Origin: a virus | IMG/VR virus record: IMGVR_UViG_3300047548_000409 | Span: 1-28,461 of that record | DNA: 28,461 nt | Strand: one strand, 5' to 3' | Part shown: piece by piece, positions 2-24,395 of the stretch | How the letters are laid out: every line of letters starts with the position of its first letter | Position numbering within the stretch: position 1 is the first letter of the stretch | The notes under the pieces: generated by a model | What the model was told of the DNA's origin: nothing | The model's input: only the letters and a program-made list of their open reading frames with translations | The model's database searches: none | Position numbers and translations under genes: made by a program

Positions 2-2455
2 GCCAATACAGTTAATTTTCTCACCTTTGCCAATACATTTGGTGATTGGGTCGTTACAACCAATAATCTCACACGAGAGAATAATGACTTAGCGGCCAAC
101 AACTATGTTAAACCTACCGGCACATTATTTCTAAACGATTCAACCTTAGGATTACAGGTTGCCAATAATGCCATTGTTGCTGGTCAATTAAGTGTGCAAG
201 GTATTGGTTCATCGGCATACATTCAAAACAACCTGCGTGTTGATACACAAGTCTATTTTCAAAATACCATACTAGGTTTGACCAACTCAGGTCAATTAAT
301 TTCTAATGGTAGAATTACGGCTGCTGGTTCTGGTACAGGATTGGCTGTCGCCAACAATACAACGATTGGTGGCACATTGGCTGTTGGTAGCAATGAAACA
401 GTTGGCGGCACTTTAGTCGTTACAGGTGCAACGACACTTAATAATACATTAGATGTTTCTGGTCCAACCACAATCAGTAATACTATCTCAGTAAGTGGTG
501 TTGGCACATTTAGTTCTAACGTCAATGTTGGAAGAAATGTTAATGTAACAGAAGATATATTTGCAACAAAGATAACTGCTGGTGATTCAATTACTGGTCG
601 TTCACTTATCATCACCAATGAAAGTGAATTGCGTGGCACATTAGCTGTAACAGGCAATACATCGATGGCCAATAACCTTCTGGTCTCTGGTCAAACAACA
701 GTTAATGCCTTACAAGCCAATACAACGGTCAACACAGCAACATTATCGGTTACTGGCACATCATTTACCAATGTATTACAGGCTAACAGTTCTGTTAATA
801 CAGCTGTTCTATCGGTTACAGGTAATACATTCACCAACTTCTTAACAGCCAACTCAGCAATTAGTGGTGCCACATTAAGTTTATCTGGCGGTACATTAAA
901 TGCACCAAGTGCTGTAGGTACTTTTCAATCATTAACAACATCAGGTCCTGTAACCGTTGGTGGTAACTTTGTTATTACTGGTCAAACTGTTTATGCAACC
1001 AACACATTTACATTAAGTGCTGGTGTATCGGTACCAATCACTTCATTCTTTACTGTTAATCGTCCTGCAGCGGCTAATGCTTCGATTCGTTGGAATGAAT
1101 TGTCAAGATACTTTGATATGAACGATGTTGATACAGGTATTTTCTATCGTGTATTGACTGATGAATTTAGAAGTGATATTACAACGATTAATGGCACAAC
1201 TAATATTGCCACATCAAATGCTGTATTTTATCTACAAAGTTTGGCCAATACAACCAATACAAACATTGCTGTTATTCAAGGCACGGATGCCACTCAAAAT
1301 GTCCGTTTAAATGCTTTAGAAACAAACAACATCAATCAGAACACCGCCATTAGTATCATTCAAGGTACCGATGCAACACAGAATGTTCGCTTGAATAGTA
1401 TTGAAACAATCAATTTAAATCAAAACACAGCCATCGCTATTATTCAAGGTGTTGATAATGGTCAGAATACAACCATTACGCAAGTCAACCAATATGCCGT
1501 GTCTGGTTATACTCATGCCAATAATGCTTTCAATGCTGCCAATACTTTTGCGGCTCTAGATGCTGGTGTTAATTTAGCACAAAATACAGCGATTGCTATT
1601 ATACAAGGTGTAGATGCCACTCAAAACACAAGGTTGAATTCTGTTGAATCAGTAAATGATACACAGAATACTCGCTTGAATAGTATTGAGACCGTTAATA
1701 GTTCTCAAAATACCAGTATCACACACATCAACCAGTTTGCTGGTGGTGCCTATGCAACTGCCAATGGTGCTAATGGATTGGCTCAAGGTGCATACAATAC
1801 TGCTAACAATCGTGTCAGTTCCGTATCAGGTACCGCAGGTCGTATCACATCTTCTGGTGGTACAACACCAACACTCGACTTGGCCACGGCAGGACCAGGA
1901 GCCACATCAGCAACCTATTCTTCCGTAACAATTGATGCTTATGGTCGTGTAACAGCACTCAGTTCTGGTACTGCACCAGTAACCTCAATCTCTGGTACAA
2001 CAAATCAAATCAACACAACTGGTGGTACAACGCCAACCCTATCATTACCACAAAGTATTCATACTGGTGCTTCAGTTCAGTTTGGTTCATTCGGTGTAGG
2101 CACGGCAGCTTCAGGTACTTCTGGTGAAATTCGTGCAACTAATAATATCACCGCCTATTTCTCTGATGAACGATTAAAGACCAAATTAGGTAACATTGAA
2201 AATGCTTTAGATAAAGTCATGTCACTCAACGGATTCTACCATGAGGCCAATGAAACTGCACAGGCATTAGGTTATCAAGTGGTTCGTGAGGTTGGTGTGT
2301 CTGCACAAGAGGTTCAAAAAGTTCTACCAGAAGTCGTGGCACCAGCACCAATTGACCCACAATACATGACCGTTCGGTATGAAAGACTGGTACCTTTGTT
2401 GATTGAGGCCATCAAAGAACTCAAAGCTGAAGTTGAAGAATTAAAGAAGAAGTAA
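2..2455 (+). CDS. Tail fibre protein with C-terminal S74 chaperone (5' end missing)
   Basis: The reading frame is open from base 2, so the gene starts outside the window; the GTG at 194 is only an internal codon. The visible 817 residues begin with beta-type fibre repeats (GTLAV, TTLNNTLDVSG, TTISNTISVSG). A module containing IRWNELSRYFDMNDVDTGI follows (about 1080-1140), then a stretch of 14-residue TQNxRLNSIETxN repeats (about 1261-1815), then a Gly/Thr/Ser-rich shaft. The last 98 residues are a peptidase S74 domain: SDERLK at 2162-2179 gives the Ser and Lys (five residues apart) of the autocleavage dyad known from phage endosialidase chaperones, and a charged helix (LIEAIKELKAEVEELKKK) ends the protein. 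The family assembles as trimers on the virion and releases the chaperone after folding. A fibre role is well supported; the receptor and fibre type are unknown. Confidence 0.88.
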   Translation, partial: ANTVNFLTFANTFGDWVVTTNNLTRENNDLAANNYVKPTGTLFLNDSTLGLQVANNAIVAGQLSVQGIGSSAYIQNNLRVDTQVYFQNTILGLTNSGQLISNGRITAAGSGTGLAVANNTTIGGTLAVGSNETVGGTLVVTGATTLNNTLDVSGPTTISNTISVSGVGTFSSNVNVGRNVNVTEDIFATKITAGDSITGRSLIITNESELRGTLAVTGNTSMANNLLVSGQTTVNALQANTTVNTATLSVTGTSFTNVLQANSSVNTAVLSVTGNTFTNFLTANSAISGATLSLSGGTLNAPSAVGTFQSLTTSGPVTVGGNFVITGQTVYATNTFTLSAGVSVPITSFFTVNRPAAANASIRWNELSRYFDMNDVDTGIFYRVLTDEFRSDITTINGTTNIATSNAVFYLQSLANTTNTNIAVIQGTDATQNVRLNALETNNINQNTAISIIQGTDATQNVRLNSIETINLNQNTAIAIIQGVDNGQNTTITQVNQYAVSGYTHANNAFNAANTFAALDAGVNLAQNTAIAIIQGVDATQNTRLNSVESVNDTQNTRLNSIETVNSSQNTSITHINQFAGGAYATANGANGLAQGAYNTANNRVSSVSGTAGRITSSGGTTPTLDLATAGPGATSATYSSVTIDAYGRVTALSSGTAPVTSISGTTNQINTTGGTTPTLSLPQSIHTGASVQFGSFGVGTAASGTSGEIRATNNITAYFSDERLKTKLGNIENALDKVMSLNGFYHEANETAQALGYQVVREVGVSAQEVQKVLPEVVAPAPIDPQYMTVRYERLVPLLIEAIKELKAEVEELKKK
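1261..1815 (+). repeat. 14-residue (42-bp) TQN-type repeats within first fibre
   Basis: Degenerate tandem units of the form xQNxxLNxIETxN / xQNTAIxIIQGxDA code for about 28 residues per pair, interrupted by an NQYA-type segment (VNQYAVSGYTHANNAFNAANTF). They are the same family as the repeats in the 1965-residue fibre downstream, so the two genes share a shaft module. Confidence 0.8.
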
Positions 2456-2926: not shown

Positions 2927-3154
2927 ATGCCAGGTCAAACCATTGGTACCGTAAATGTTCAAATAGGTCAGCCAACTAATCCACGAGCCATCGCCATCAA
3001 CTACGGTACTGGTCGAACACTTAAAAGTTTGACTGACGTAAACGCTTCGGCTGCGGTGTCTGGTGATACATTGATATATGATTCAACAACTGATACATTT
3101 ATCGTTGAACCAATTACAAATACAAATCTACGAATCGATAACGGCTACTTCTAA
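2927..3154 (+). CDS. Small structural protein preceding giant fibre
   Basis: A 75-residue protein containing TLKSLTDVNASAAVSGDTLIYDSTTDTFIVEP, a 'LTDVN...GDTLIYDS.TDTFIVEP' segment that I recognise from phage tail-fibre and baseplate proteins, where it often occurs inside longer chains. The start codon follows AGGTAAAATATG, a 12-base initiation region repeated exactly before the gene at 9434. Only three bases separate it from the previous gene, and its TAA overlaps the ATG of the giant fibre by one base. Translational coupling with that fibre is therefore likely, and it may be an accessory or adaptor for it. No catalytic or membrane features are seen. Confidence 0.7.
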   Translation: MPGQTIGTVNVQIGQPTNPRAIAINYGTGRTLKSLTDVNASAAVSGDTLIYDSTTDTFIVEPITNTNLRIDNGYF

Positions 3155-6100
3155 TGTCAGCAAATACATCCAACATACAGATACTCCGGTCATCCACATC
3201 GGTTGCACCGGCAGAACTACTAGAAGGCCAGTTAGCGTTCTCGTATCGTTCTGGTCTATTATACATCGGTTCTAACACCGATATATTGACCATTGGTGGT
3301 AATGCCATCGTATCGTTTGCACAGTCAGCATTTAATCAAGCAAATACCACAACAGCTAATCTTGCGGCTAATCTTGCATACATTCAGTCAATCAATAATT
3401 GGCAGAACACCGAAATATCTGGTGTCAATTCATATGCACAGACAGCGTTTAATAAAGCCAATACAGGTGGTGTATTTTCTGGCAATTCAATCTTTCAACA
3501 GAATTTAACTGTTCAACAAAATCTTACCGTTGATGGTAATCTAATCATCAATGAAGATATATGGTTCAATGATACACTGGTTGTATTGGGTGCCAATAAT
3601 ATTACATCAGATACATTTGATATTGGTTTTGTATCAAACTACAATGACGGCACATCAAATGCTCGCACAGGTATTTTGCGTGATGCAAACACCAAAGAAT
3701 ATTATGTGTTTGATGGTTACACATTACCAGTCACACAAAATGATAACATCAATATCAATGACCCATCATTTAATCGTGCCAATCTACAGGCTGATTATGT
3801 AAAATCTAATCTCATTAGTAACACCATTGTATCTGATGATGCAAAGATTACTACACTTTCAGTAAATGGTATTGATTTCACATCTTCTCAGGCCACACAA
3901 AATACTCGGTTAAATTCTATTGAAACGGTCAATCAAGACCAGAATACAGCCATTGCCATTATACAAGGCACCAATCTGTGGCAGAATACAGAGATTGAGG
4001 CTGTCAATAACTATGCACACTTCATTGGCAGCTATGCAAATACCACGGCAGTTAATTTAGGTTATGTGAATCAGTATGCTGCATCGGGTTATGACTTGGC
4101 GAATACCAATGCACAGAATCTTATTTACCTGAATCAGTATGCACAATCAGGATACGATACAGCCAATTCAGCAACTGCAAACACTATCTATACACAAGGT
4201 GTAGACGCTACACAAAATACTTGGATTGCAGCCAATAATGAATTGCAAGCAGGCATTAATGCTACTCAGAATACACGCCTGAATTCTATTGAAACGGTCA
4301 ACATCGACCAGAACACCGCCATCAGTATCATACAAGGTACTGATGCCACACAAAACATCCGACTGAATTCAATTGAGACCATCAACAATGACCAGAATAC
4401 ACGGATGTCTATCATTGAAGGTACCGATGTTACACAAAACAATTGGATTACCTCTAATGTCATTTACTTCCAAAGTGTTGATGATACACAGAACGCATGG
4501 ATCTCGGCCAATCAGGCATACTTCCAAGGTGTAGACAACACTCAAAACACCAGATTAAATTCAATTGAGACCGTCAATCTCAATCAGAATACAGCGATTG
4601 CTGTTATACAAGGTACTGACCTCTGGCAGAACACACAGATTACCTATGTGAATCAGTATGCACAAGGTGCTTTTAATCAAGTCAATACAGTCTTTGCAAT
4701 ATCAAATACCAAAGCCAATCTATTTGGTTATACAGCCAACACCGTATTAGTTGCTAACTCAGCTGGCTATGTTTCAAATAGTCCGATGTTCTTTACATCA
4801 GGCAATAATACACTCATTATTCCTGGTGCAATTTCTGGTGGCGGTGCAAACACAACAATTACAGCTGGTGCTTATGTAACAACATTTGACACAACAGGTG
4901 CAGCATCATTCCCTGGTATTGTGTATATTGCCAATACAAACATTGGTGCCTTTGCAAATACAATTGCAGCCAATACCATCTACACGCAAGGTGTGGACGC
5001 CACACAAAATACTTGGATAGCATCAAACAATGCTCTACAAGCTGGCATCAACGCAACACAAAATACACGCCTGAATTCTATCGAAACGGTCAATGTAGAC
5101 CAGAATACAGCGATTGCTATTATTCAAGGTACTGATGCTACTCAAAACATCCGCCTGAACAGTATTGAAACAATCAATGCGGATCAAAATACTCGCATGA
5201 GTATCATTGAAGGTGTAGATGCTACTCAAAATATCCGCCTGAACAGTATCGAAACAATTAATAACGACCAGAATACAGCGATTGCTATTATTCAAGGTAC
5301 TGATGCTACTCAAAACATCCGCCTGAATAGTATCGAAACAATTAATAATGACCAGAACACCCGTATGTCTATCATTGAGGGTGTGGATGCAACTCAGAAC
5401 ATTCGTCTAGGTTCAATCGAAACAATTAATACGGATCAAAATACCCGTATGACATTGATTGAAGGTGTCGATGCTACTCAGAACATTCGTTTAGGTTCGA
5501 TTGAAACCATCAACAACGACCAGAATACACGGATGTCTATCATCGAGGGCACCGATGCCACTCAGAATGTCCGCTTAGGTAGCATAGAGACCGTTAACGA
5601 TAGTCAAAACACTCGTATGTCGATTATCGAAGGCACCGATGCGACACAAAACATTCGCCTAGGTTCAATAGAGACCATCAATAATGACCAGAATACTCGT
5701 ATGTCCATTATTGAAGGTGTTGATTTATGGCAAAATAATGAAATCACATTTGTCAATCAGTATGCAGCCTCAGCATACGATAAAGCCAATACAGGTGGTG
5801 TATTTACCGGTAATGTAACGATTAACCAAGACTTGGTTGTTTCTGGTAACGTAACATTCTTAGGTAATGTAATTGCACAAGGTGCTCAAGATTTAATTAT
5901 CAATGACCCGCTCATCTATCTTGCAAATAATAACTTAGGCAATTCAGTAGATATTGGTATAATTGGTAACATCATTGAATCACCAACAGGATATCAACAC
6001 ATTGGTATTGTTCGTGATGCTTCTACTAATCAATGGAAGTTATTCAGTAATGTTGTACCTGAACCAACCACAACGGTCGATTTCACTGATGCAATTTGGG

Positions 6101-9051
6101 ACGATATTCAATTAGGCACCGTATACGGTAACGTAGTTGCACAGACAGTTGTTGTAAATGGTGTAGACTTTACAGGTCAGCAAGCATCACAGAATGCTTT
6201 CATCACACAAGTCAATCAGTATGCTGAATCGGCATATGCTACGGCCAACTCAGCACAAGCCAATACTATCTTTACACAAGGCGTTGATGCTACTCAAAAC
6301 ACACGCCTGAATAGTATCGAAACGGTCAATACGGATCAAAACACGGCTATCAGTATTATTCAAGGTACCGATGTTACTCAAAATGTCCGTCTGAATAGTA
6401 TTGAAACAATCAATAACGACCAAAATACAACAATCACTCAGGTCAACCAGTATGCTGCATCGGCTTACCAAACAGCCAATCAAACGAATCAGTATGCTCA
6501 GTCGGCATATGCTCATGCAAACAATGCCTATAACTATGCCAACACATCCATCAGTTACAATGATGGTGTCAATGCAACACAGAATACTCGTATTGGTGGT
6601 ATTGAAACGATTAATATTAACCAGAATACAGCAATCAGTATCATTCAAGGTACCGATGCAACACAGAATGTTCGGTTGAATTCAATTGAAACAGTCAACC
6701 AAGACCAAAATACAGCCATCAGCATTATACAAGGTGTTGATTTAACACAGAACACTCGTATTACTGAGGTGAATCAGTTTGCGGCTTCTGCTTATCAGAC
6801 TGCTAACGATACCAATACATATGCACAATCTGCCTATCTAACGGCAAATCAAACAAATCAATTTGCACAATCTGGATATAATCAGGCAAATACTGCTACA
6901 AATCTAGCACAATCTATTTTTCAAAGTTATCGAGCAAATACAATTGTTGTTGCTAATGCAACAGGTTATCTATCAAACAGTAATGCTACTTTCTTTGCTT
7001 CAAACAATAATATTATATTTTCTGATCCAGTAGGAGATATTGTATTTGGTAACGTTCTGTCGAAAAATACCAACTTCACCGATGCTGGTATCATATTTAG
7101 AGGCAATAGCACCACAAACGTAATTTCTGGATTATTTACAGAAGTTCGAGGAAACATTCTCTCTTATGGTATTAATACTGCTCAAATTGATAGAAACTTT
7201 GATTTCACCAAAGTAGGTGGTATATTCAGATTTGACACGAGACCAACTGGTGGTTTTGGAAACCAAACCGCTTTCGTTATTAAAAATCGTCAAGCCAATT
7301 CAAATACAGAATTAAATGCTTTTGTTATTGATTTAAGTAATAACAATACTTATTTGACACCTAGCAATGGTAACGTTTCGATTGGTTCTACAACATTACC
7401 AACTGCAAAGTTACAAGTATTTGCAAGCACAAGTAATGAAGTTGTCCGAATAACTCAAGCTGGTTCAGGTAATGGTTTAATCATTATCAGTAACACCGCT
7501 TCATTTTCGAATAGCACTGGTGCTTTACAAGTTTCTGGTGGTGCCGGCATTCGAGGTAATGTGTATGCTGATGCGTTGTTTGATGGTGATACAAGATTAT
7601 TATCTTACTTTGGTGGTATCGATTCAACACAAAATACACAGATTGCTGGTATTCAAGGCGTCGACTTAGCACAGAACTCAGCAATCAGTATTATTCAAGG
7701 TGTTGATGCCACACAAAACGTTCAGATTGCTGGTATACAAGGGATTGATGTTGCTCAAAACACTCGTATGTCAATCATTGAAGGTGTGGACGCTACACAG
7801 AATGTTCAAATCGCTGGCATACAAGGCGTTGATAATTCTCAGAACTCAGCAATACTCATTATACAAGGTGTAGACCTAACACAAAATGTGCAGATTGCTG
7901 GTATTCAAGGTGTCGATTTAGCACAGAACACACGCATTACAGAAGTCAATCAATATGCGGCTTCGGCTTATGCACAAGCAAATACCAATGCAAGCCAAAT
8001 TGCTGTAATACAAGGTGTTGATGTAACACAAAACAATAATATCATTGCCGTAAATTCTTATGCACAATCGGCATATGCACAAGCCAATACAGCCAATGCA
8101 AGAGCATTTAATACTGTATTGAAGTCTGGCGATACAATGACAGGTTCTTTGAACATTGCATCACCATTAACAGGCACAACAACATGGACGGCTGCACTTG
8201 GTGTCAATGGTTCAATCGCATCAAACAACAGTATGTATCTTGGTGGTACCGCTTATGTTGGTGTAGCAAACGGTGCAGTATTATTCCCTAATGCAATCAT
8301 TGAAGCGATTGGTAATAGTCAGACATATGCACAGATTGTTATGCAGAATAAGAATGCTAACGTCAATGCATCGTCTGACTTCGTAGCAACTGCCGATAAT
8401 GGTAATGATACAAGTACCTTTATCGACATGGGTATCAACTCATCGAACTATAATCAAGCAGGCTTTGAATTAACGGGACCAAATGATGGTTATCTGTATG
8501 TTTCAGGTAACACATTTACAGGTGGTGGTGCTCTTGTATTAAGCACAACCACACCTAAAGACATTATCTTCTCTCTTAATGGCCAAGGAGTTGGCTCAGA
8601 GATTGCTCGATTCCAATTCAATACTGGATTGGTATTAAAGAATCGTATTACCTTTGCCGATGCAACCACACAGAATACGGCTGCTGCACCTGCCAACTAT
8701 ACACAGTCAGCATTTAATACTGCGAATGGTGCCAATGGCATGGCGATTGGTGCATACAACACCGCCAACGGTGCCAATGGTATGGCCATCGGTGCCTATG
8801 GTCGAGCAAACTCTGCAATCAGTTTAGCACAGGCAGCATTCAATCGTGCCAATACAGAACCAGATTTAGCTGGCTGGAGACCAAATACAATATTGGTAGC
8901 CAACACAGCTGGCTTCCAGTCAAATAGTAACTCATCGATTATCGCTGCCAATAACACCATGTTTACTGGTGATGTATATGGTGGTACACTTTATAGTAAT
9001 GGCCAAGATGTCATAGGCACAAGTTTAGCTTTCGCAATTGCCTTGGGATAA
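3154..9051 (+). CDS. Giant 1965-residue tail fibre with 14-residue repeats
   Basis: The longest gene in the window. Residues 1-50 (IQILRSSTSVAPAELLEGQLAFSYRSGLLYIGS) resemble the Mtd_N-like N-terminal domain of phage receptor-binding proteins, probably the virion-attachment end. The rest alternates four blocks of 14-residue TQN- and NQYA-type repeats with globular modules. Two related modules contain DIG(F/I)...GI(L/V)RDA....(F) (about 3574-3720 and 5893-6054). Three copies of an NT(I/V)(L/V)VAN..G(Y/F).SNS module occur near 4735, 6936 and 8881. The C-terminal part (about 8120-9051) has a MTGSLNIASPLTG beta region and GANGMAIGAYNTANGANGMA repeats. Unlike its neighbours it carries no S74 chaperone, so folding may need another factor. 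The start overlaps the preceding stop. A long, shaft-like trimeric fibre is the most likely role; which T4 fibre it replaces is unknown. Confidence 0.85.
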   Translation: MSANTSNIQILRSSTSVAPAELLEGQLAFSYRSGLLYIGSNTDILTIGGNAIVSFAQSAFNQANTTTANLAANLAYIQSINNWQNTEISGVNSYAQTAFNKANTGGVFSGNSIFQQNLTVQQNLTVDGNLIINEDIWFNDTLVVLGANNITSDTFDIGFVSNYNDGTSNARTGILRDANTKEYYVFDGYTLPVTQNDNININDPSFNRANLQADYVKSNLISNTIVSDDAKITTLSVNGIDFTSSQATQNTRLNSIETVNQDQNTAIAIIQGTNLWQNTEIEAVNNYAHFIGSYANTTAVNLGYVNQYAASGYDLANTNAQNLIYLNQYAQSGYDTANSATANTIYTQGVDATQNTWIAANNELQAGINATQNTRLNSIETVNIDQNTAISIIQGTDATQNIRLNSIETINNDQNTRMSIIEGTDVTQNNWITSNVIYFQSVDDTQNAWISANQAYFQGVDNTQNTRLNSIETVNLNQNTAIAVIQGTDLWQNTQITYVNQYAQGAFNQVNTVFAISNTKANLFGYTANTVLVANSAGYVSNSPMFFTSGNNTLIIPGAISGGGANTTITAGAYVTTFDTTGAASFPGIVYIANTNIGAFANTIAANTIYTQGVDATQNTWIASNNALQAGINATQNTRLNSIETVNVDQNTAIAIIQGTDATQNIRLNSIETINADQNTRMSIIEGVDATQNIRLNSIETINNDQNTAIAIIQGTDATQNIRLNSIETINNDQNTRMSIIEGVDATQNIRLGSIETINTDQNTRMTLIEGVDATQNIRLGSIETINNDQNTRMSIIEGTDATQNVRLGSIETVNDSQNTRMSIIEGTDATQNIRLGSIETINNDQNTRMSIIEGVDLWQNNEITFVNQYAASAYDKANTGGVFTGNVTINQDLVVSGNVTFLGNVIAQGAQDLIINDPLIYLANNNLGNSVDIGIIGNIIESPTGYQHIGIVRDASTNQWKLFSNVVPEPTTTVDFTDAIWDDIQLGTVYGNVVAQTVVVNGVDFTGQQASQNAFITQVNQYAESAYATANSAQANTIFTQGVDATQNTRLNSIETVNTDQNTAISIIQGTDVTQNVRLNSIETINNDQNTTITQVNQYAASAYQTANQTNQYAQSAYAHANNAYNYANTSISYNDGVNATQNTRIGGIETININQNTAISIIQGTDATQNVRLNSIETVNQDQNTAISIIQGVDLTQNTRITEVNQFAASAYQTANDTNTYAQSAYLTANQTNQFAQSGYNQANTATNLAQSIFQSYRANTIVVANATGYLSNSNATFFASNNNIIFSDPVGDIVFGNVLSKNTNFTDAGIIFRGNSTTNVISGLFTEVRGNILSYGINTAQIDRNFDFTKVGGIFRFDTRPTGGFGNQTAFVIKNRQANSNTELNAFVIDLSNNNTYLTPSNGNVSIGSTTLPTAKLQVFASTSNEVVRITQAGSGNGLIIISNTASFSNSTGALQVSGGAGIRGNVYADALFDGDTRLLSYFGGIDSTQNTQIAGIQGVDLAQNSAISIIQGVDATQNVQIAGIQGIDVAQNTRMSIIEGVDATQNVQIAGIQGVDNSQNSAILIIQGVDLTQNVQIAGIQGVDLAQNTRITEVNQYAASAYAQANTNASQIAVIQGVDVTQNNNIIAVNSYAQSAYAQANTANARAFNTVLKSGDTMTGSLNIASPLTGTTTWTAALGVNGSIASNNSMYLGGTAYVGVANGAVLFPNAIIEAIGNSQTYAQIVMQNKNANVNASSDFVATADNGNDTSTFIDMGINSSNYNQAGFELTGPNDGYLYVSGNTFTGGGALVLSTTTPKDIIFSLNGQGVGSEIARFQFNTGLVLKNRITFADATTQNTAAAPANYTQSAFNTANGANGMAIGAYNTANGANGMAIGAYGRANSAISLAQAAFNRANTEPDLAGWRPNTILVANTAGFQSNSNSSIIAANNTMFTGDVYGGTLYSNGQDVIGTSLAFAIALG
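3889..4686 (+). repeat. Fibre repeat block 1 (mixed TQN and NQYA units)
   Basis: Units such as TQNTRLNSIETVNQ / DQNTAIAIIQGTN alternate with NQYAASGYDLANTN-type units, all 14 residues (42 bases) long. Two odd units contain NAWISANQAYFQ-like and TWIAANNELQAG-like sequences in the same register. The block starts and ends in WQN-containing units (LWQNTEIEAVNNYA and LWQNTQITYVNQYA). Confidence 0.8.
5056..5727 (+). repeat. Eight perfect-length tandem 84-bp / 28-residue repeats
   Basis: Eight consecutive units of exactly 28 codons, each of the form TQNIRLxSIETINx + DQNTRMSIIEGVDA, run from the Thr codon at 5056 to the Leu codon at 5725. Each unit is two related 14-residue halves. Neighbouring copies differ mostly at third codon positions and at a few residues (N/G at position 7, RM/AI at positions 19-20). 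Confidence 0.92.
6190..6921 (+). repeat. Fibre repeat block 3 (NQYA-rich)
   Basis: TQN-type units alternate with runs of NQYA(A/Q)SAYxxANxx units. The 14-residue period is maintained across both types (for example NQYAASAYQTANQT followed by NQYAQSAYAHANNA). Confidence 0.8.
7619..8118 (+). repeat. Fibre repeat block 4 (TQNVQIAGIQGVD variant)
   Basis: A distinct subfamily in which TQNVQIAGIQGVDL alternates with AQNSAISIIQGVDA or AQNTRMSIIEGVDA, ending with NQYA-type units. The 14-codon period is retained. Confidence 0.8.
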
Positions 9052-9433: not shown

Positions 9434-11833
9434 ATGTCGATTTCAAAAATTACCGGTGCATCAATTGAGGACGGTTCGATAACCCTAGCCGACCTAGGCA
9501 TCACCACAATCGATTCAGGCACAGGTAATACTCTTACACTTCAAGCAAATTCTGCAACTGGTATCGTCATTGATACAAGTGGTAATACAGCCATTGCGAA
9601 CACATTAAGTTTCACAGGAACTGGTGCTCGTATTCGTGGTGATTTTAGTAATGGTACTGTTGTTAATCGAACTGCATTTCAAACTAGCACAACTAATGAT
9701 AACACATTTATTCCTGTTATTGGTAATGGTACTGGTGTTAGTAATGGAATAGAAATTTGCAATTCATCTGACGCTGGTAATGCTGGTATTTTACAAATGT
9801 CTAGTAGAACCACAGATACGAGAATTGCTGCAAATGCTCGTGGAGTAGGATCATTCCTACCTCTCACAATGTATACAGGCGGCAGCGAGCGCCTACGCAT
9901 TGATACTTCTGGTAATGTGGGTATTGGCACAAGCAGTCCTTCTTCATTGCTCAATGTGTCTGCATCAGATTCTACAGGAATAAATGTTAGATTTGATATA
10001 ACAAATACACAATCTGGTTCTTTACTTAGCTTTTTATCATCTGGTACAACTTTTTCAGCGGCTGGATGGCCAGCAATATCCGATGCAGGAATCATACGCT
10101 CGGGAGTATCTAGTAGCGGCGGTCTTGTGTTAACAACAGCGGGCTCAACAGCACCTATTATATTTTCACCAGAAAGCACAGAACGTATGCGCCTCGATGC
10201 AACTGGTCGATTGGGAATAGGAACCACTTCTCCATCTCAAAGGCTCCATGTAGCCGCTGGCACCATTCTTTCTTCAAACACAGCAGGAACAATTGCAACA
10301 GTATCGATAGCCGGTAACGGTTCTACTGTAGGTACTTCTGACTTTGCATTACAACAAGGCACAAGCTCTGAAGCGTATGTGTATAACCGTGCAAATAGTT
10401 TCTTGGTATTAGGAACAAATAACACGGAGAGGATGAGAATTAATGCTGCTGGTGATGTTGGTATACGGACTGCCAGTTTCTCAACATTAGCTTCATCTGG
10501 TCGTGGATTATTAGAAATAAATGGTACATCCGATTCTGCTATGGGTTTCAAAGCAGGAGATACTTTGTATGGATATCTTTATACATCTTCAACTGAATTT
10601 AGAATTGCTAATATAACAGCGAATCCTCTTATTTTTTATACCAATAACACAGAGCGTATGCGTATTGACTCTAGTGGTCGTGTTGGTATTGCTGCCACTT
10701 CAATGTCATATCACCTTGAGGTTGGAAACGGAACTGCCGACACTCGCTTTGTAGCTAATCCTAATAACGCTTATGCTATTGGTGTCAAAAACGGTGCTAA
10801 TAACATCGGTGGATGGATTGGATCTCCGTCTGGTGGTGTGTTGAGTTTTTCTGCCAATGATGGCACAGAGCGTATGCGTATCGACGCTAGTGGTAATTTA
10901 TTAATTGGTAGAACATCTCAATCGACGGGAGATTGGTTTGTTACTGCACAGGGTGGATATACCGCAACAAGCCAAGATAATTCTGTAAGGTCTCAACTAT
11001 TTGCTTGGACTGGTTTAGCTGGTACAGGAACTTTTACTAACCACGACTTTACATTCCGTACCAATAACACAGAGAAGATGCGGATTACCTCTGGTGGTAA
11101 TGTTGGTATTGGTACCAGCAGTCCCGATAACAATGCTGGATATATTGCACTCAGTATTACAGGTTCAACAGGTGGACAAATATATTGGAGATCCACAGGT
11201 TCTTCCGTTTCTGCTTATGCTGGTGCAGATAGTACCGGTGGTTATATTGCTACACTTTCGGATCACGCATTAATATTCAGAACCAATAATACAGAACGTG
11301 GTCGTTTTACCAACCAGGGCGCATTTATGGTTGGTACCAACATAGCTGTAAATAGCACAGACCTTGTTCACAAGATTGGTGATGTGGCCAGTGGTACCGC
11401 TTATGCTCGTTTGATGATGCAAGAGCGTGGCGGTAATTGGATTAGTTTTAATGATGGTGCTGGTACACACTATGGTACTATTGTTCGAAGCGGCTCTGGA
11501 GTTAGCTATGGCAGTAACTCTGACTATCGCTTAAAAGAAAACATTGTACCTATGACAGGTGCTTTAAATAAAGTTGCTCAGTTGAAACCATGCACATACA
11601 CATGGAAATCAACAGGTGAAGCTGGTCAAGGATTTATTGCTCATGAATTACAAGAAGTGATACCTGATGCGGTTTCAGGTGAAAAAGACGGTATTAATCC
11701 TGAAACGGATACACCTGCTTATCAAACAGTTGATACTTCATTTTTAGTTGCAACACTCACGGCTGCTATACAAGAACAGCAAGCCATTATCGAATCATTA
11801 AAATCCCGTATCGAAATTTTAGAACAGAAATAA
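9434..11833 (+). CDS. Tail fibre with NTERMRI repeats and S74 chaperone
   Basis: 799 residues. The N-terminus (ISKITGASIEDGSITLADLGI) is a typical fibre start. A region around 9600-9950 (LSFTGTGARIRGDFSNGTVVNR ... GVGSFLPLTMYTGGSERLRID) is paralogous to the start of the gene at 18913. The body contains at least six (N/T)TERMRI(D/N)xxGxVGI(G)T repeats, a frequent phage-fibre element. The C-terminus is a peptidase S74 chaperone: SDYRLKEN with Ser696 and Lys701, then KPCTYTWKSTG..GQGFIAHELQEVIPDAVSGEKDG and a terminal coiled coil (IQEQQAIIESLKSRIEILEQ). Cleavage before Ser696 would free about 104 residues. The start follows AGGTAAAATATG. It is a trimeric side or tail fibre by family knowledge; the receptor is unknown. 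Confidence 0.88.
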   Translation: MSISKITGASIEDGSITLADLGITTIDSGTGNTLTLQANSATGIVIDTSGNTAIANTLSFTGTGARIRGDFSNGTVVNRTAFQTSTTNDNTFIPVIGNGTGVSNGIEICNSSDAGNAGILQMSSRTTDTRIAANARGVGSFLPLTMYTGGSERLRIDTSGNVGIGTSSPSSLLNVSASDSTGINVRFDITNTQSGSLLSFLSSGTTFSAAGWPAISDAGIIRSGVSSSGGLVLTTAGSTAPIIFSPESTERMRLDATGRLGIGTTSPSQRLHVAAGTILSSNTAGTIATVSIAGNGSTVGTSDFALQQGTSSEAYVYNRANSFLVLGTNNTERMRINAAGDVGIRTASFSTLASSGRGLLEINGTSDSAMGFKAGDTLYGYLYTSSTEFRIANITANPLIFYTNNTERMRIDSSGRVGIAATSMSYHLEVGNGTADTRFVANPNNAYAIGVKNGANNIGGWIGSPSGGVLSFSANDGTERMRIDASGNLLIGRTSQSTGDWFVTAQGGYTATSQDNSVRSQLFAWTGLAGTGTFTNHDFTFRTNNTEKMRITSGGNVGIGTSSPDNNAGYIALSITGSTGGQIYWRSTGSSVSAYAGADSTGGYIATLSDHALIFRTNNTERGRFTNQGAFMVGTNIAVNSTDLVHKIGDVASGTAYARLMMQERGGNWISFNDGAGTHYGTIVRSGSGVSYGSNSDYRLKENIVPMTGALNKVAQLKPCTYTWKSTGEAGQGFIAHELQEVIPDAVSGEKDGINPETDTPAYQTVDTSFLVATLTAAIQEQQAIIESLKSRIEILEQK
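10649..10678 (+). repeat. Exact 30-bp direct repeat, copy 1
   Basis: Thirty bases encoding the TERMRIDSSG segment are identical to 21391-21420 in another fibre gene, including every synonymous position. Confidence 0.9.
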
Positions 11834-13789: not shown

Positions 13790-16198
13790 ATGGCTTACCT
13801 CGGCAACAGACCTGATGCGTTTCAATACACATCAACATCATACCAGCAACTCTCTGGTGATGGTGTTACGACCACCTTTACACTCAGCCGCCAAGTATCC
13901 GCCAATGGTGATATTGAAGTAGTCGTCAATAATGTTCCACAGGAACCTGGTGTTGCTTATTATGTTTCCGATTTAATCAATCTAAACTTCACGGCACCAC
14001 CTTCTGCGGCTGCCAATAACATCTACATTGTTTATCGTGCTTATGTTCAGTCTGGTATTGCACCGGCAGCCAACACAGTAACGACCTCTGCGATTGCAGC
14101 CAATACGATTCAGCCATGGCAGCTCACAAACTCATTACTGAATCCGATTGTCAATACATTTACAGCCAATGGTACTGGTACAACATACACATTGGCCTTT
14201 ACACCACCTTCAGCAAATGCTGTGGTGGTGACGATTAACGGTATCACACAAAATCATCCTGAGAATTACAGTACCAACGGAACAACATTAACCTTTACGG
14301 ATCCACCGGCAGCCAACTCGGTGATTCGAGTGCTACAGCAAGCCGTGATAGGCACTTCGATTGTTCCGATTGATGGGTCGGTTAGCACCAGCAAATTAGC
14401 AGATGGCTCGGTGACCACAAGTAAGCTGGCTTCAGGATTAACTCTTTCAAGTGCCAATCTGAGTGGCGGCTCAATTAATGATATGACGATTGGTGGTACG
14501 ACTGCCAATACAGGTGCATTTACTACATTATCAGCAAATAATATTACTACATCAGGTAATGTAATAGCAAATACGGCTCGTGTTAACTTATTAGATATAG
14601 TGACTGGAGCCAACAACGCTTACCTACACTATGATGATAACATAACAGGTTGGACTTACACAGGTAAATCATTCTCAGTTGCTGGTCAAGAAACTATACC
14701 ATCCGGTATATTCTTCAAACCAGACGGAACCAAAATGTATGTCATTGGTTCTACCGGTGATGATGTAAACGAATATAATTTAAGCACTCCATGGGAAGTA
14801 AACACCGCCACTTTTGTGCAAGCATCTGTTGCATTAGTTGATACAGCACCAACTGGAATATTTTTCAGAGATGATGGTGCAAAAATGTATATGATTGGTA
14901 CCACCAATGATACAGTATATGAGTATAATTTATCAACACCATGGAATGTATCTACACTTTCATTGTTTCAAAGTTTTTCTGTAGCATCTCAGGAGCTTAC
15001 GCCACAAGATATTTGGTTTAAACCAGACGGCACCAAAATGTATGTGACAGGTTCTTCAGGTGATTCTGTATATGAATATAATTTATCATCTGCATGGAAT
15101 GTCACCACAGCATCATTTTTACAATCATTTTCTGTTGCAGCTCAAGAAACAACTCCAGTAGCCGTAAACTTTAGTGCTGATGGTACAAAAATGTATGTGT
15201 TAGGTGCTACTGGTGATGATATTAACCGGTACGATTTATCAGTTGCATGGGATATATCAACGGCTGTATTCTATAATAACTTCTATATTGGTTTTCAAGA
15301 AATAAATCCAGCCGGAATGTTCATTAACAAAGAATCTGGTATTGAAGCTGCTTATGTTGTAGGTTCTACTGCTGATACCGTATTTCAATATCGAACTGAA
15401 TCGAATTCATTATCATTAGATACTCGCAATTTGTTTGTTGATGGTTCTTTATATGCAAATAATAATTTACAAGTTTCAGGTGCTGCTCGCATAGAAGGAT
15501 CATTAGTTTCGGGTGCCATTACTGGTACCAGTTTTTCTGGTGCAGTAGCGGCCACATCACTTACATCATCAGCTGGTGTAACAATGAGTGCCACAACACA
15601 AACAATTACAATTGGTGATACACAAACTACAGGACCAATTATTGTCGGTGGTTCAACTGGTACAGGAACAATTACAGTAGGACGTTCAAGTGGTACACAA
15701 TCTGTTAATATCTCTGGTGCGCCGATTGTATTGACAAAAGGACAATTACAGTTTCCAGCCACACAGAATGCTTCAGCTGATGCAAATACACTCGATGATT
15801 ATGAGGAAGGAACTTGGACGCCTACTTGGTCGTCAGGTACTGCTACATATAGAGCTCAAGTAGGAAGGTATACAAAAATTGGTAATGTTGTGTATTACAA
15901 CTGTAAGATTGCATCATCAAGTGTAACTGGTATGTCATCGGCAAATATAAACGGACTCCCTTTCGCAGCAAGTTCAAGTAATGCTGAAGGTTACACAACA
16001 GGGTCAACTTTTTGTGTGATTGGGTTTGAAAATCTTGGATCAGCAGGAATTGCTCCTCAAATATCGCCGGGACTTTCTCGGATTGAGTTGTATATTGTTA
16101 CGCAAGCATCAGGAGACAATTATACACCACTAACTGCTTCAGCTTTAAATGAAGGTTCTGAGTTAAATTTAACTGTAACAGGATTTTATTTCGTTTAA
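13790..16198 (+). CDS. Tail fibre carrying a beta-propeller-like domain
   Basis: 802 residues. The MAYLGN start and the next 200 residues (LSGDGVTTTFTLSR, VVVTINGITQ, DGSVSTSKLADGSVTTSKLASGL, IGGTTANTGAFTTLSA) match the architecture of the gene at 20149, a typical phage-fibre N-terminal region. Residues about 295-537 are five repeats of about 50 residues with the core FKPDGTKMYVIGSTGDDVNEYNLSTPWEV, matching beta-propeller blades of the NHL/lactonase type; the fifth is degenerate. A Gly/Thr-rich linker follows. From residue 655 the protein ends with FPATQNASADANTLDDYEEGTWTP and GRYTKIGNVVYYNCKI, the C-terminal domain shared with two neighbours. Only a weak AAAGAAA site precedes the start, but the paralogue and the late motif support it. 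A propeller in the shaft suggests glycan or protein binding; the ligand is unknown. Confidence 0.85.
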   Translation: MAYLGNRPDAFQYTSTSYQQLSGDGVTTTFTLSRQVSANGDIEVVVNNVPQEPGVAYYVSDLINLNFTAPPSAAANNIYIVYRAYVQSGIAPAANTVTTSAIAANTIQPWQLTNSLLNPIVNTFTANGTGTTYTLAFTPPSANAVVVTINGITQNHPENYSTNGTTLTFTDPPAANSVIRVLQQAVIGTSIVPIDGSVSTSKLADGSVTTSKLASGLTLSSANLSGGSINDMTIGGTTANTGAFTTLSANNITTSGNVIANTARVNLLDIVTGANNAYLHYDDNITGWTYTGKSFSVAGQETIPSGIFFKPDGTKMYVIGSTGDDVNEYNLSTPWEVNTATFVQASVALVDTAPTGIFFRDDGAKMYMIGTTNDTVYEYNLSTPWNVSTLSLFQSFSVASQELTPQDIWFKPDGTKMYVTGSSGDSVYEYNLSSAWNVTTASFLQSFSVAAQETTPVAVNFSADGTKMYVLGATGDDINRYDLSVAWDISTAVFYNNFYIGFQEINPAGMFINKESGIEAAYVVGSTADTVFQYRTESNSLSLDTRNLFVDGSLYANNNLQVSGAARIEGSLVSGAITGTSFSGAVAATSLTSSAGVTMSATTQTITIGDTQTTGPIIVGGSTGTGTITVGRSSGTQSVNISGAPIVLTKGQLQFPATQNASADANTLDDYEEGTWTPTWSSGTATYRAQVGRYTKIGNVVYYNCKIASSSVTGMSSANINGLPFAASSSNAEGYTTGSTFCVIGFENLGSAGIAPQISPGLSRIELYIVTQASGDNYTPLTASALNEGSELNLTVTGFYFV
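14672..15400 (+). repeat. Five propeller-blade repeats of about 150 bp
   Basis: Five consecutive units of 50-51 residues have conserved positions: FSVAxQExxPxxIxFKPDGTKMYVxGSTGDxVxEYNLSxxWxV. The fifth unit loses the KPDGTKMY core but keeps VVGSTADTVFQY. Confidence 0.88.
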
Positions 16199-20148: not shown

Positions 20149-22110
20149 TTGGCATACCTTGGGAACCCCTTATCGACCGTAGATTTTCCTGTGGATTATT
20201 TCACAGGTGACGGCACATCTACAACTTTTCAACTCTCAAGAATTCCAGCTTCTCCCACCTCGATTCTCGTGCATATCGGTGGTGTCAAGCAGGTGGCTTC
20301 GACTACCGATCCGGCATACTATCTCGATGGCTCTAAATTAGTTTTCGTATCACCACCAGGTGCCTATTCACCGATTGAAGTGAACTATCTTGGCATTGCA
20401 GGCCAAGTGAATATTCCTGGTACTCAGTCAGTCACACAAGATATGCTGTCGTTGCAGCTGGCAAACACCTTTGTGTATCAGACAACGGCTAATGGTGCCA
20501 CAGCATCATTCACACTCAATGCTCCGCCGGTCTCAGCAAACTCTCTGGTCGTTTCAGCAAACGGTGTTGTGCAATACGATTACTCGGTGAATGGCACAAA
20601 TCTAACTTTTGGATTTACTCCGCCGGCAGGAACTTTGGTGAGGGTAACTTCGTTGGCTCTGGCACAAGCAGGAGTTCCTGCGGATGGCTCGGTGACATCT
20701 GTGAAATTGGGAGCAAATCTAGCACTCACAGGAAATACCACAGCAACACTTGGTGGTGGCACAATTAACAACATGGCGATTGGTGGAACTACACCCGCTA
20801 TTGGCCGTTTTACCGATTTAACAGACACAGGTCTTACATCTGGTCGAGTGATTTATGCTGGTGCTGGTGGTAATTTGGTGGATTCAATAAATCTTATATT
20901 TAATGGTACGACACTTTCTGCGGCTGGTTTTAGTGGACCATTTAATGGTACAGTCGGAGGAACCACACCTTCTACAGGCGCATTTACTACTCTATCAGCA
21001 AGCGGAGCATTCTCAGCCAATGGCGGTGTAACACTAGGCGATGCTTCAGGCGATGCACTCACTATTAACTCTAGTGCTGTATCTATTCCTAATGGACTGA
21101 ACTTTGATAGCAATACTTTAGTTATTGATGCTGCTAATAATAGAGTTGGTATTGGTACTACTAGTCCAACAGTTCCACTAGACATCGCTGGAGCTGCTAG
21201 AATTACTGGATCAAACCTGTCTATTGTTCCATCTACTACAACTAGCGCAGCGTATTTATTAAACACTAATGCTAGCGGTAACTTCTTCTTTGCCATTGAC
21301 AATAGTACTGGAGCTTCATTCGGGGCTGGCAACTATGGTCGAGTTATTTACTCAAGCGCAGCGTATCCATTGGCGTTTTTTACCAATGATACAGAGCGTA
21401 TGCGTATTGACTCTAGTGGTAATGTTGGTATTGGAACTAGTAGTCCTGGAGCTAGATTAGAACTTGGCGGCACAAACCCAACTATATATTTTGGTCCTGC
21501 TGGCACTGCAAGTGGTGGTTATATTGGGTATAACACAGACAATAATTATTTAAGTATTAATGCAGTTTCACAAGGAGTGAGTTATAGAAACATTGCAATT
21601 GCAAGTGATGGGGGTAATTGTATAGTTGGGGCAACTACAACTTCTGGTTCTGGAAAATTTGTAGTGTCCACTAATACTGGTTACTGTGCCACCATGAACA
21701 GCGTTAGTAACAATGCGGATTACATTCAGTTCTGGAACGGTTCTCAAGTTGGCTCAATCAATCGTGTTGGTGGATCAAATGTCAACTACAACACTTCTTC
21801 TGATTACCGCCTAAAGCATGATGTGGCTCCTATGACTGGCGCTCTTCAGCGTGTCGCTCTTCTAAAACCATGCACCTATAAATGGAATATTGATGATTCT
21901 GAAGGTGAAGGCTTTATTGCACACGAACTGGCTGAAGTAGTGCCACAAGCGGTAACTGGTGAAAAAGATGCTCTTGAAGAAGATGGTTCAATCAAACCAC
22001 AGGGTATAGATACCTCTAATTTAGTCGCATTGCTCACAGCCGCAATCCAAGAACAACAAGCTCAAATAGAAGAACTCAAAGCAGAAATACAATACCTCAA
22101 AGCTAAATAA
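20149..22110 (+). CDS. Tail fibre, MAYLGN N-terminus and S74 chaperone, TTG start
   Basis: 653 residues. The start is TTG: aligned with the paralogue at 13790, both begin M-A-Y-L-G-N, and AGGA lies at 20138-20141, whereas no suitable ATG exists. The N-terminal half (LSTVDFPVDYFTGDGTSTTFQLSR, LVVSANGVVQYDYSVNGT, ADGSVTSVKLGANL, IGGTTPAIGRFTDL, VGGTTPSTGAFTTLSA) is a standard fibre N-terminal region. NDTERMRIDSSGNVGIGTSSPG follows. The C-terminus is a peptidase S74 chaperone with SDYRLKHD (Ser551, Lys556), GFIAHELAEVVPQAVTGEKDA, and a final coiled coil (IQEQQAQIEELKAEIQYLKAK). It closely matches the S74 end of the gene at 9434. A self-cleaved trimeric tail fibre is expected. Confidence 0.87.
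   Translation: MAYLGNPLSTVDFPVDYFTGDGTSTTFQLSRIPASPTSILVHIGGVKQVASTTDPAYYLDGSKLVFVSPPGAYSPIEVNYLGIAGQVNIPGTQSVTQDMLSLQLANTFVYQTTANGATASFTLNAPPVSANSLVVSANGVVQYDYSVNGTNLTFGFTPPAGTLVRVTSLALAQAGVPADGSVTSVKLGANLALTGNTTATLGGGTINNMAIGGTTPAIGRFTDLTDTGLTSGRVIYAGAGGNLVDSINLIFNGTTLSAAGFSGPFNGTVGGTTPSTGAFTTLSASGAFSANGGVTLGDASGDALTINSSAVSIPNGLNFDSNTLVIDAANNRVGIGTTSPTVPLDIAGAARITGSNLSIVPSTTTSAAYLLNTNASGNFFFAIDNSTGASFGAGNYGRVIYSSAAYPLAFFTNDTERMRIDSSGNVGIGTSSPGARLELGGTNPTIYFGPAGTASGGYIGYNTDNNYLSINAVSQGVSYRNIAIASDGGNCIVGATTTSGSGKFVVSTNTGYCATMNSVSNNADYIQFWNGSQVGSINRVGGSNVNYNTSSDYRLKHDVAPMTGALQRVALLKPCTYKWNIDDSEGEGFIAHELAEVVPQAVTGEKDALEEDGSIKPQGIDTSNLVALLTAAIQEQQAQIEELKAEIQYLKAK
21391..21420 (+). repeat. Exact 30-bp direct repeat, copy 2
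   Basis: Identical to 10649-10678 over 30 bases; encodes TERMRIDSSG in the S74 fibre at 20149. Confidence 0.9.
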
Positions 22111-22113
22111 AAA

Positions 22114-23214
22114 ATGGCACAACAAAAGATAGCATCCAATGAATTAGAGTTTACTGGCGGTGTATTTCCAATTACCGGTGGACTAAGTGTATCTGCTGGA
22201 TCAAATACGGCTCCTGCAATTACCACAACAGGTGATACTAACACAGGTATATTTTTTCCTGCAGCTGACACGATAGCCTTCTCAGAGGGTGGTGTGGAGA
22301 GTATGCGGATTGATAGTAGTGGAAATTTGGGGATTGGATCGATCCCATCATCAGGAAGAACACTTACTATAGGCAAAGGAATGACGGGATCAACAGTCCC
22401 GTATGGAATATTAAATGCTGGTATTGTTCAATCGGATGTCACATCTGCAGCATATTATTTTTCTACTTTTGCGGCCACACAAAACAACACGTTTACTTTA
22501 CCAACATTAACTCACTATTTTGCTCAACAAGGAACATTTGGAGCTAGTTCTACAATTACAAATCAAATTGGTTTTTTAGCTAATTCAAACCTTACAGGCG
22601 CAACCAATAACTTTGGCTTTTATTCCGATATTGCGGCCGCAACTAACCGCTGGAACTTCTATGCCAATGGCACGGCTAATAACTATATGGCTGGTGCTTT
22701 GGGGATTGGCACAACTGCTTTAACTGATGCTGTAGTTAAACTTGGTAAGAATATTACAGGTGGTTCAGGTGGCGGTGGCGGTGGTAGATATGATATCACC
22801 AATCCATCAGGTGATGTGCCTGGATCAGGAACATCCGGACAAGGTAACAACGGTGGTTTTGGTACAACAGACTTAGGTGCCTCCTCTACAGGTGGCGGCG
22901 GTGGTGGTGCTGGCGGAGTTGGCGGCAACGGATCTTCCCAGGTTGCCGGCAACGGTGGCATAGGATTACTTTCATCAATTTCAGGAACACCAACATATTA
23001 TGGTGGTGGCGGCGGTGGAGGTTGTGTAGCAGGATTTTCATATACAGGCGGCACTGGTGGTGCAGGTGGTGGCGGCAACGGTTCAAATGGCACATCTGCA
23101 GCTGCAGCAGGTACAGTAAATACCGGTGGTGGCGGTGGTGGTGGCGGAACAAGCGGAAATGCTGGTGGTCGAGGTGTAGTAATTGTTCGATACAGATATC
23201 GATTTGCAGCTTGA
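22114..23214 (+). CDS. Tail fibre/adhesin with glycine-rich C-terminal tip
   Basis: 366 residues, beginning three bases after the previous stop without a clear ribosome site, suggesting coupling. The start MAQQKIASNELEFTGGVFPITGG parallels the gene at 11837. Then come ITTTGDTNTGIFFPAADTIAFSEGG..SMRIDSSGNLGIG, common fibre repeats, and a region (about residues 88-193: IVQSDVTSAAYYFS ... TNQIGFLANSNLTGATNNFGFYSDI...RWNFYANGTANNYMAG) paralogous to the gene at 11837. From residue 216 to the end the protein is glycine-rich, with several runs of five to eight Gly and an ending GGRGVVIVRYRY. The Gly-rich plus 'G(R/S)G(V/I)VI(V/I)RY' ending is known from phage adhesins; gp38-type tips of T-even phages use polyglycine-II packing. 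Receptor-tip function is inferred. Confidence 0.83.
   Translation: MAQQKIASNELEFTGGVFPITGGLSVSAGSNTAPAITTTGDTNTGIFFPAADTIAFSEGGVESMRIDSSGNLGIGSIPSSGRTLTIGKGMTGSTVPYGILNAGIVQSDVTSAAYYFSTFAATQNNTFTLPTLTHYFAQQGTFGASSTITNQIGFLANSNLTGATNNFGFYSDIAAATNRWNFYANGTANNYMAGALGIGTTALTDAVVKLGKNITGGSGGGGGGRYDITNPSGDVPGSGTSGQGNNGGFGTTDLGASSTGGGGGGAGGVGGNGSSQVAGNGGIGLLSSISGTPTYYGGGGGGGCVAGFSYTGGTGGAGGGGNGSNGTSAAAAGTVNTGGGGGGGGTSGNAGGRGVVIVRYRYRFAA
22759..23190 (+). repeat. GGT/GGC-rich glycine codon region
   Basis: Recurrent GGTGGCGGTGGT-type runs encode oligoglycine tracts separated by short non-glycine segments. The region also creates long artefactual frames on both strands. Confidence 0.85.
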
Positions 23215-23619: not shown

Positions 23620-24393
23620 ATGGCTACAGTATCCAATCGAGCTCAATTCACCGACTACTGCCTACGAAAACTTGGCTTTCCCGTAATCGAAATCAACGTG
23701 GATCCAGACCAAGTTCAAGACCGTGTTGATGATGCTCTACAATATTTTCAAGATTATCATTTTGATGGCCTACAAAAGACTTACTACATTCATGCCATCA
23801 CTCAGCAAGACATTGACAATCGTTACTTAGATTTAAGTAATGTATTAGATAACTCCAATAATGCCACTACCGTGGTTGGTGTTACCCGTATATTTCCAAT
23901 GTATGATTCACAAGCCAGCATCAGTATGTTTGACTTGCGGTATCAGTTACGCTTAAACGAATTGTATGACTTCACCAGTGCAAGTTATATTAACTACACC
24001 ATGACGATGCAACATCTACGAATGCTTGAACAGTTGTTTGTTGGTGAAGTGCCTATTCGTTATCAACGTCACATGGAAAAATTATTCATTGATTGGGCAT
24101 GGGGTCAGCAACAGGCACCAGTGGGCCAAATTGTAGTTGTTGAGTGTTATACAATTATTAATCCTGATGTATACAATCGTGTATGGGACGACCGTTGGCT
24201 CAAGCGTTATGCAACAGCACTTATCAAGCGACAATGGGGCGAGAACCTTAAAAAGTTTGGTAACATACAACTACCAGGTGGTGTCGTATTAAACGGTGAT
24301 AAAATCTTTGAAGAGGCCATGGAAGAAATCAAAGACCTCGAAGAAGATATGGAAAATAATTATGGTGGCGTCCTCGAATTCATGATGAACTAA
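23620..24393 (+). CDS. 13: Neck protein gp13 (head completion)
   Basis: 257 residues, similar in size to T4-like gp13 proteins. Recognisable stretches are RAQFTDYCLRKLGFPVIEINV, QVQDRVDDALQYFQDYHFDG, GVTRIFPMYDS, SMFDLRYQLRLNELYDF, and LEQLFVGEVPIRYQRHMEKL followed by VWDDRWLKRYATALIKRQWG and LPGGVVLNGDKIFEEAMEEI. This order is characteristic of the family. In T4, gp13 and gp14 form the collar that seals the packaged head and receives the tail. GAGGA (23611-23615) precedes the ATG, with a late promoter at 23579. It is followed two bases later by gp14, with which it would assemble. The high similarity to the family and the gp13-14-15-16 order make this the firmest call in the window. Confidence 0.9.
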   Translation: MATVSNRAQFTDYCLRKLGFPVIEINVDPDQVQDRVDDALQYFQDYHFDGLQKTYYIHAITQQDIDNRYLDLSNVLDNSNNATTVVGVTRIFPMYDSQASISMFDLRYQLRLNELYDFTSASYINYTMTMQHLRMLEQLFVGEVPIRYQRHMEKLFIDWAWGQQQAPVGQIVVVECYTIINPDVYNRVWDDRWLKRYATALIKRQWGENLKKFGNIQLPGGVVLNGDKIFEEAMEEIKDLEEDMENNYGGVLEFMMN

Positions 24394-24395
24394 TC

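Follow-up and report, generated by a model that had tools for sequence, protein, structure and literature searches.

A predicted half-polar trimeric coiled-coil shaft in a giant fibre protein of an uncultured T4-like phage

The window, by which we mean the whole stretch of DNA that was analysed, is the same as the virus record of 28461 bases. The T4-type neck and tail genes 13, 14 and 15 lie at 23620-26392, after a row of fibre genes, and the record is a fragment of an uncultured T4-like phage. Among cultured phages, cyanophages and other T4-like phages have the gp15 proteins nearest to its own, at less than 60% identity. The main subject here is a giant fibre gene that stops at 9051, about 14.6 kb upstream of the start of the gp13-like gene at 23620, with other fibre genes in between (Table 1). 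Its product gave no Pfam family above the cut-off and no PHROG, its N terminus had no match in a search against a collection of cultured phages, and the only matches returned by Pfam, NCBIfam and PHROGs, such as those to FliO and GrpE, were rejected as sub-threshold and of low complexity. Based on its position among fibre genes, its size and a coiled coil that alternates with recurring non-coil domains, we infer that the protein is a fibre shaft, a role that fits a tail fibre and a whisker alike.

Several neighbouring genes were also characterized. Three other fibre genes (2-2455, 9434-11833 and 20149-22110) end in a Peptidase_S74 domain, an endosialidase-type, self-cleaving chaperone, unlike the giant fibre, which has none. 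The product of 13790-16198 is a fibre-like protein with repeated SVAGQETxPxGIFFKPDGTKMYVxGSTGDxVNEYNLS units that resembles a beta-propeller, and its SGL Pfam match rose above the cut-off through summed repeats. The 22114-23214 protein contains long glycine runs in its C-terminal half and resembles glycine-rich phage adhesins, with no Pfam match. A small ORF just before the giant fibre (2588-2923) matched PHROG 3304 (L-shaped tail fibre assembly) and, below threshold, LtfC, the collar by which T5-type lateral fibres are anchored (PMC10713586).

Table 1. Features of the giant fibre gene and related units in the window
Feature	Position	Strand	Basis or remark
Giant fibre ORF, 1965 residues, carrying the array	3154..9051	+	coiled-coil segments alternate with other domains predicted or judged beta-rich
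Array: eight 84-base units, or sixteen 14-residue putative coiled-coil units, aa 635-858	5056..5727	+	translation, repeat analysis
18-residue unit (7+11, stutter), TQNTWIASNNALQAGINA, immediately before the array	5002..5055	+	
Ala-rich putative coiled-coil exit, register kept, WQNNEITFVNQYAASAYDKANTGG, a/d mostly Ala	5728..5799	+	
Non-coil domain past the shaft, a recurrent module of related fibres	5800..6183	+	mostly strand predicted, low confidence
Paralogous array of only four 14-residue units, same lead-in sequence before it	4264..4431	+	
Four units with Ala-rich flanks, aa 1020-1131	6211..6546	+	predicted single continuous helix, pLDDT 92.1
Third array, about seven 14-residue units, mostly of the R/E-free type	7627..7917	+	
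Same units, within the fibre gene upstream (ORF 2-2455)	1250..1680	+	

The initial annotation described the array as eight uninterrupted 84-base units, and the 672 bases indeed translate in frame into eight 28-residue units with no insertions or deletions. Tandem Repeats Finder detected the array independently. The self-identity of the array was 0.81 at an offset of 28 residues and 0.33 at an offset of 14, against a composition baseline of 0.10. The 28-residue units have two halves of related 14-residue types, an R-type (TQNxRLNSIETxNx) and an S-type (DQNTRMSIIEGxDA, or the R/E-free form DQNTAIAIIQGTDA). Judged by sequence, the biological unit is 14 residues, because the half-units come in any order in relatives, and the array is a run of 16 such units, which would be about 33 nm long if helical.

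A profile was iterated over 95 loci, IMG/VR relatives included, giving 420 distinct units with the consensus T-Q-N-T-(R/A)-(I/M/L)-(T/S)-I-I-(E/Q)-G-V-(D/N)-x. In the IMG/VR relatives the 14-residue units are arranged in any order. The longest run among all loci is the 16 units of the window, followed by runs of 15, 15, 14, 8 and then shorter ones. Proline does not occur in any of the 5880 unit residues, and glycine occupies position 11 in 75% of the units. Positions 11 and 13 covary in the family, Gly going with Asp and Thr or Ser with Asn (P = 6e-20). The 420 units are related, and P values from the large sample overstate their independence. Distant relatives (L068-L075) carry a 21-residue unit, xQNVRLDYSNTAITIIQGVD, which amounts to one extra heptad of the first type. 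A genome scan for cellular copies confirmed none.

The lead-in NTIYTQGVDATQNTWIA occurs at two places in the giant fibre, followed by 4 units at one and by 16 at the other. In pairwise comparisons of the eight 84-base units, dN (0.07-0.30) was far below dS, which was around 1 or saturated for most pairs; the closest pair, units 1 and 3, had a dS of 0.36. The shared lead-in with 4 versus 16 units, together with the dN and dS values, indicates that the array grew by multiples of 14 residues, long ago, and under purifying selection. The tandem duplication proposed earlier for this array is thus borne out, with growth in 14-residue steps and unit runs of varied length.

The trimerisation motif R-hxxhE reads Arg(g)-h(a)-x-x-h(d)-Glu(e) (PMC3653964). 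It is present as R5-h6-x-x-h9-E10 in 14 of the 16 array units and 24 times in the whole giant fibre protein, as compared to a mean of 0.04 and a maximum of 2 in shuffled sequences. Since the motif puts R5 at g and E10 at e, residues 6 and 13 fall at a, and residues 9 and 2 (16) at d. Positions 5 and 10 were the top MI-APC pair, the strongest covariation in the unit family: R/K5 against E/D10 over the 420 units gave [[223,1],[7,189]], and R5 against E10 over 95 dereplicated units gave [[37,6],[3,49]] (P = 1e-16). Among 31 related stretches, the register runs on unbroken into the flank, which carries Ala at a13, d16 and a20 in 29, 29 and 28 rows, respectively. ORF22 of the cultured Pectobacterium phage PcaP2EGY has core pairs at 13/16 that are mostly both hydrophobic (I..L) or both polar (N/D..Q), a coupling that is nominally significant only (P = 0.04, and P = 0.10 with fibritins pooled); that Ile/Leu or Asn/Gln occur together there argues that 13 and 16 are core positions. 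A Crick trimer phase scan on hydrophobicity was discarded as uninformative: its best correlation was 0.31 at another register, and the correlation at the canonical register was about 0 because alternate heptads cancel. Thus, the 4-3 spacing of the initial annotation is upheld by the motif, the flank and the covariation, while the hydrophobicity scan expresses no preference for it. The core letters that it listed, Q, L, I, N, Q, M, I, D, hold as written, apart from two units in which residue 20 is I. Throughout the array, a is L, N, (I or M) and D and d is Q and I, so that exactly half of the core is polar, an unusually large share.

Whether these units fold as helix or strand was addressed with two AlphaFold2 runs. 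Run 1 covered the array, used six sequences and built repeated beta strands at a mean pLDDT of 48.9, as would suit a beta structure (a beta-solenoid or triple beta-spiral shaft) with one rung per 28 residues. Such a fold would be in keeping with the many beta-branched residues and the glycine at position 11, a composition (Pb > Pa) that counts against helix, and with the beta-rich shafts of other phage fibres, e.g. T4 gp37. However, unrealistic beta-solenoids are a documented product of AlphaFold2 when it is given repeats (PMC11795689), and run 2, on aa 1020-1131 of the giant fibre with 31 sequences, returned a single helix over residues 3-110 for a stretch that holds four units of both types, IIQGTD among them. 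The run 1 model was put aside in favour of run 2 for its low confidence (49 vs 92), and it is probably an instance of the known artefact. The spacing of the units also speaks against strands. In the family, spacings of 14 (383 cases) and 21 (83 cases) were followed by 28, 32, 35, 39, 42, 49 and others, all of them sums of 7 and 11, and an anchor-only scan that also catches 18-residue (7+11) units placed 32 of 37 non-14 spacings in the same set. Spacings such as 14, 18, 21, 32, 35 and 49 obey the heptad/hendecad rules of coiled coils with stutters. In a strand, residues 5 and 10 would lie on opposite faces, leaving their covariation unexplained, and the units contain no proline. We consider the beta reading unlikely. 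The array also has a strong 7/3-residue spectral peak. We conclude with high confidence, from sequence and model, that the array is an alpha-helical coiled coil.

One rival is a dimeric or antiparallel coiled coil. Parallel dimers, GCN4 for example, typically have Asn at a, and the Asn at a in the array could point to a dimer. Some dimers also carry R-hxxhE (PMC3653964). In contrast, the hydrophobic d positions, all Ile, and the dense R-hxxhE motifs favour parallel trimers. Sequence comparison by way of PcaP2EGY led to solved phage relatives that are tail needles; P22-type tail needles are trimers, which are the general rule in phage fibres. A dimeric or antiparallel arrangement therefore seems quite improbable to us, and our confidence in the trimer state is good. 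The long trimeric coiled coil envisaged in the initial annotation agrees with the motif in 14 of 16 units, the 5-10 charge covariation, the 7/11 spacings and the helix at pLDDT 92, and the array is very probably a parallel trimeric coiled coil.

The N@d stalks of trimeric autotransporters are long coiled coils of three chains whose cores contain many polar layers, and the polar layers of the array had been likened to their anion-binding Asn layers. That polar residues stand at the predicted positions is supported by Ala at the same core positions in the flank, by the PcaP2EGY pairing and by the a/d letters of the array. If the likeness held, the regularly spaced polar residues would bind anions such as chloride. 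The chemistry is reversed, however: in the stalks, Asn stands at d and follows an Ile/Val at a, with halide bound, whereas in the array Gln stands at d and Asn/Asp at a. Published halide sites read [I/V]xxNxxx (Asn at d) or Qxx[I/V]xxx (Gln at a), with the branched hydrophobic partner in the same heptad, and Asn at a in a GCN4 trimer holds water (PMC12933892). A check for these motifs within the array found that Asn never stands at d, nor Gln at a. Moreover, half of the polar a-layers (8 layers) are Asp, which would repel anions and is costly for stability at a. Because the layers are reversed and half of the a-layers are Asp, the anion analogy was rejected as the default, and we regard anion binding as very unlikely. 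Instead of chloride, water or side-chain hydrogen bonds most likely occupy the polar layers, although our confidence in the layer content is low. Across loci, the most common a/d pairs following the motif were by far D-Q (128 cases) and N-Q (104 cases), so the polar heptad is under selection and does not reflect decay. A core that alternates over 16 cycles between a hydrophobic R-hxxhE heptad and an N/D(a)-Q(d) heptad that is polar throughout might, as a tentative and rather doubtful extension, form a line of hydrated or cation-binding cavities along its axis; such a line would set the register and flexibility of the fibre and perhaps a response to salt or pH.

Taken together, we think it highly likely that the array makes up a rigid part of a fibre shaft, in which three parallel chains would be wound into a left-handed alpha-helical coiled coil of about 33 nm. 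Alongside the repeat, register evidence, covariation and helical model, which were computed, we infer the trimer, the salt bridge, the layer chemistry and the shaft role. Each 14-residue unit would consist of two heptads. The first would be hydrophobic (a = Leu/Met/Ile, d = Ile) and locked between chains via a putative Arg(g)-Glu(e') salt bridge of the R-hxxhE motif, which would select the parallel trimer. The second would be fully polar (a = Asn/Asp, d = Gln). These polar layers probably set the axial alignment, because a slip of 7 residues puts polar against hydrophobic layers, and would let a very long fibre remain soluble and moderately flexible while holding water or side-chain hydrogen bonds instead of chloride. 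The length of the shaft has changed through gains and losses of 14-residue units and is now kept by purifying selection. An R-hxxhE heptad followed by an N/D-Q heptad, in steps of 14, could serve as a clear sequence rule that flags long trimeric shafts in uncultured aquatic phages and could aid their recognition, since family searches return nothing for such shafts. The array would also be a natural test of how far a coiled-coil trimer tolerates a polar core, and a warning that AlphaFold2 may turn such arrays into false beta-solenoids.

Among known systems, the trimeric autotransporter adhesins do not fit the giant fibre: Pfam and NCBIfam scans found no C-terminal membrane anchor family on it, the gene lies in a T4-like phage structural cluster, and we rejected the protein as a membrane autotransporter in favour of a phage gene. 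Searches of the PDB with the whole fibre and the repeat profile found no solved relative of the window's own units, and the top repeat-profile matches, designed propellers, were rejected as having matched by repeat summation. A likeness from a cultured phage is PcaP2EGY ORF22 (tblastn against the window array, E = 2e-13), which has 14-residue units such as TQNNRLTAVENKNASQD and 13 R-hxxhE motifs. It differs in second heptads that mix hydrophobic (I/L) and polar (N/Q) residues, in Lys at position 12 and in having no long pure array. The PcaP2EGY coil matches T4-type fibritins and P22-type tail needles of known structure. The P22-type needle gp26 (PDB 2poh, 4lin) is likewise a trimeric coiled coil from a phage; it shares the strong 7/3-residue peak of the array and has a sequence match to the PcaP2EGY coil, but it has no strict R-hxxhE, a core that is mostly hydrophobic or Ala, and no regular 14-residue array. 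T4 fibritin (gpwac) is a parallel trimeric segmented coiled coil (PMC3004832, PMC3797505). Its words RLSELETK, RLTVIETS and RVSTIETS are the same R-hxxhE words, three in all, as compared to one in gp34 and none in the beta-rich fibre proteins gp12, gp37 and the P22 tailspike, and both genes lie in a structural cluster upstream of 13-14-15. In fibritin, however, the a/d residues after the motif are mostly hydrophobic (Val, Leu, Ile, Ala), whereas the array has N/D and Q every time; the giant fibre gene is four times longer and lies about 14.6 kb upstream of gp13, while T4 wac abuts 13. A phmmer search of the PDB with the whole giant fibre found no fibritin and no N-terminal or foldon match, whereas a T4 wac query found its own entries, and identity as fibritin was rejected on both terminal domains and gene position. 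The array is predicted to be a form of the phage segmented trimeric coiled coil, a T4 fibritin-like shaft that is new in its half-polar core.
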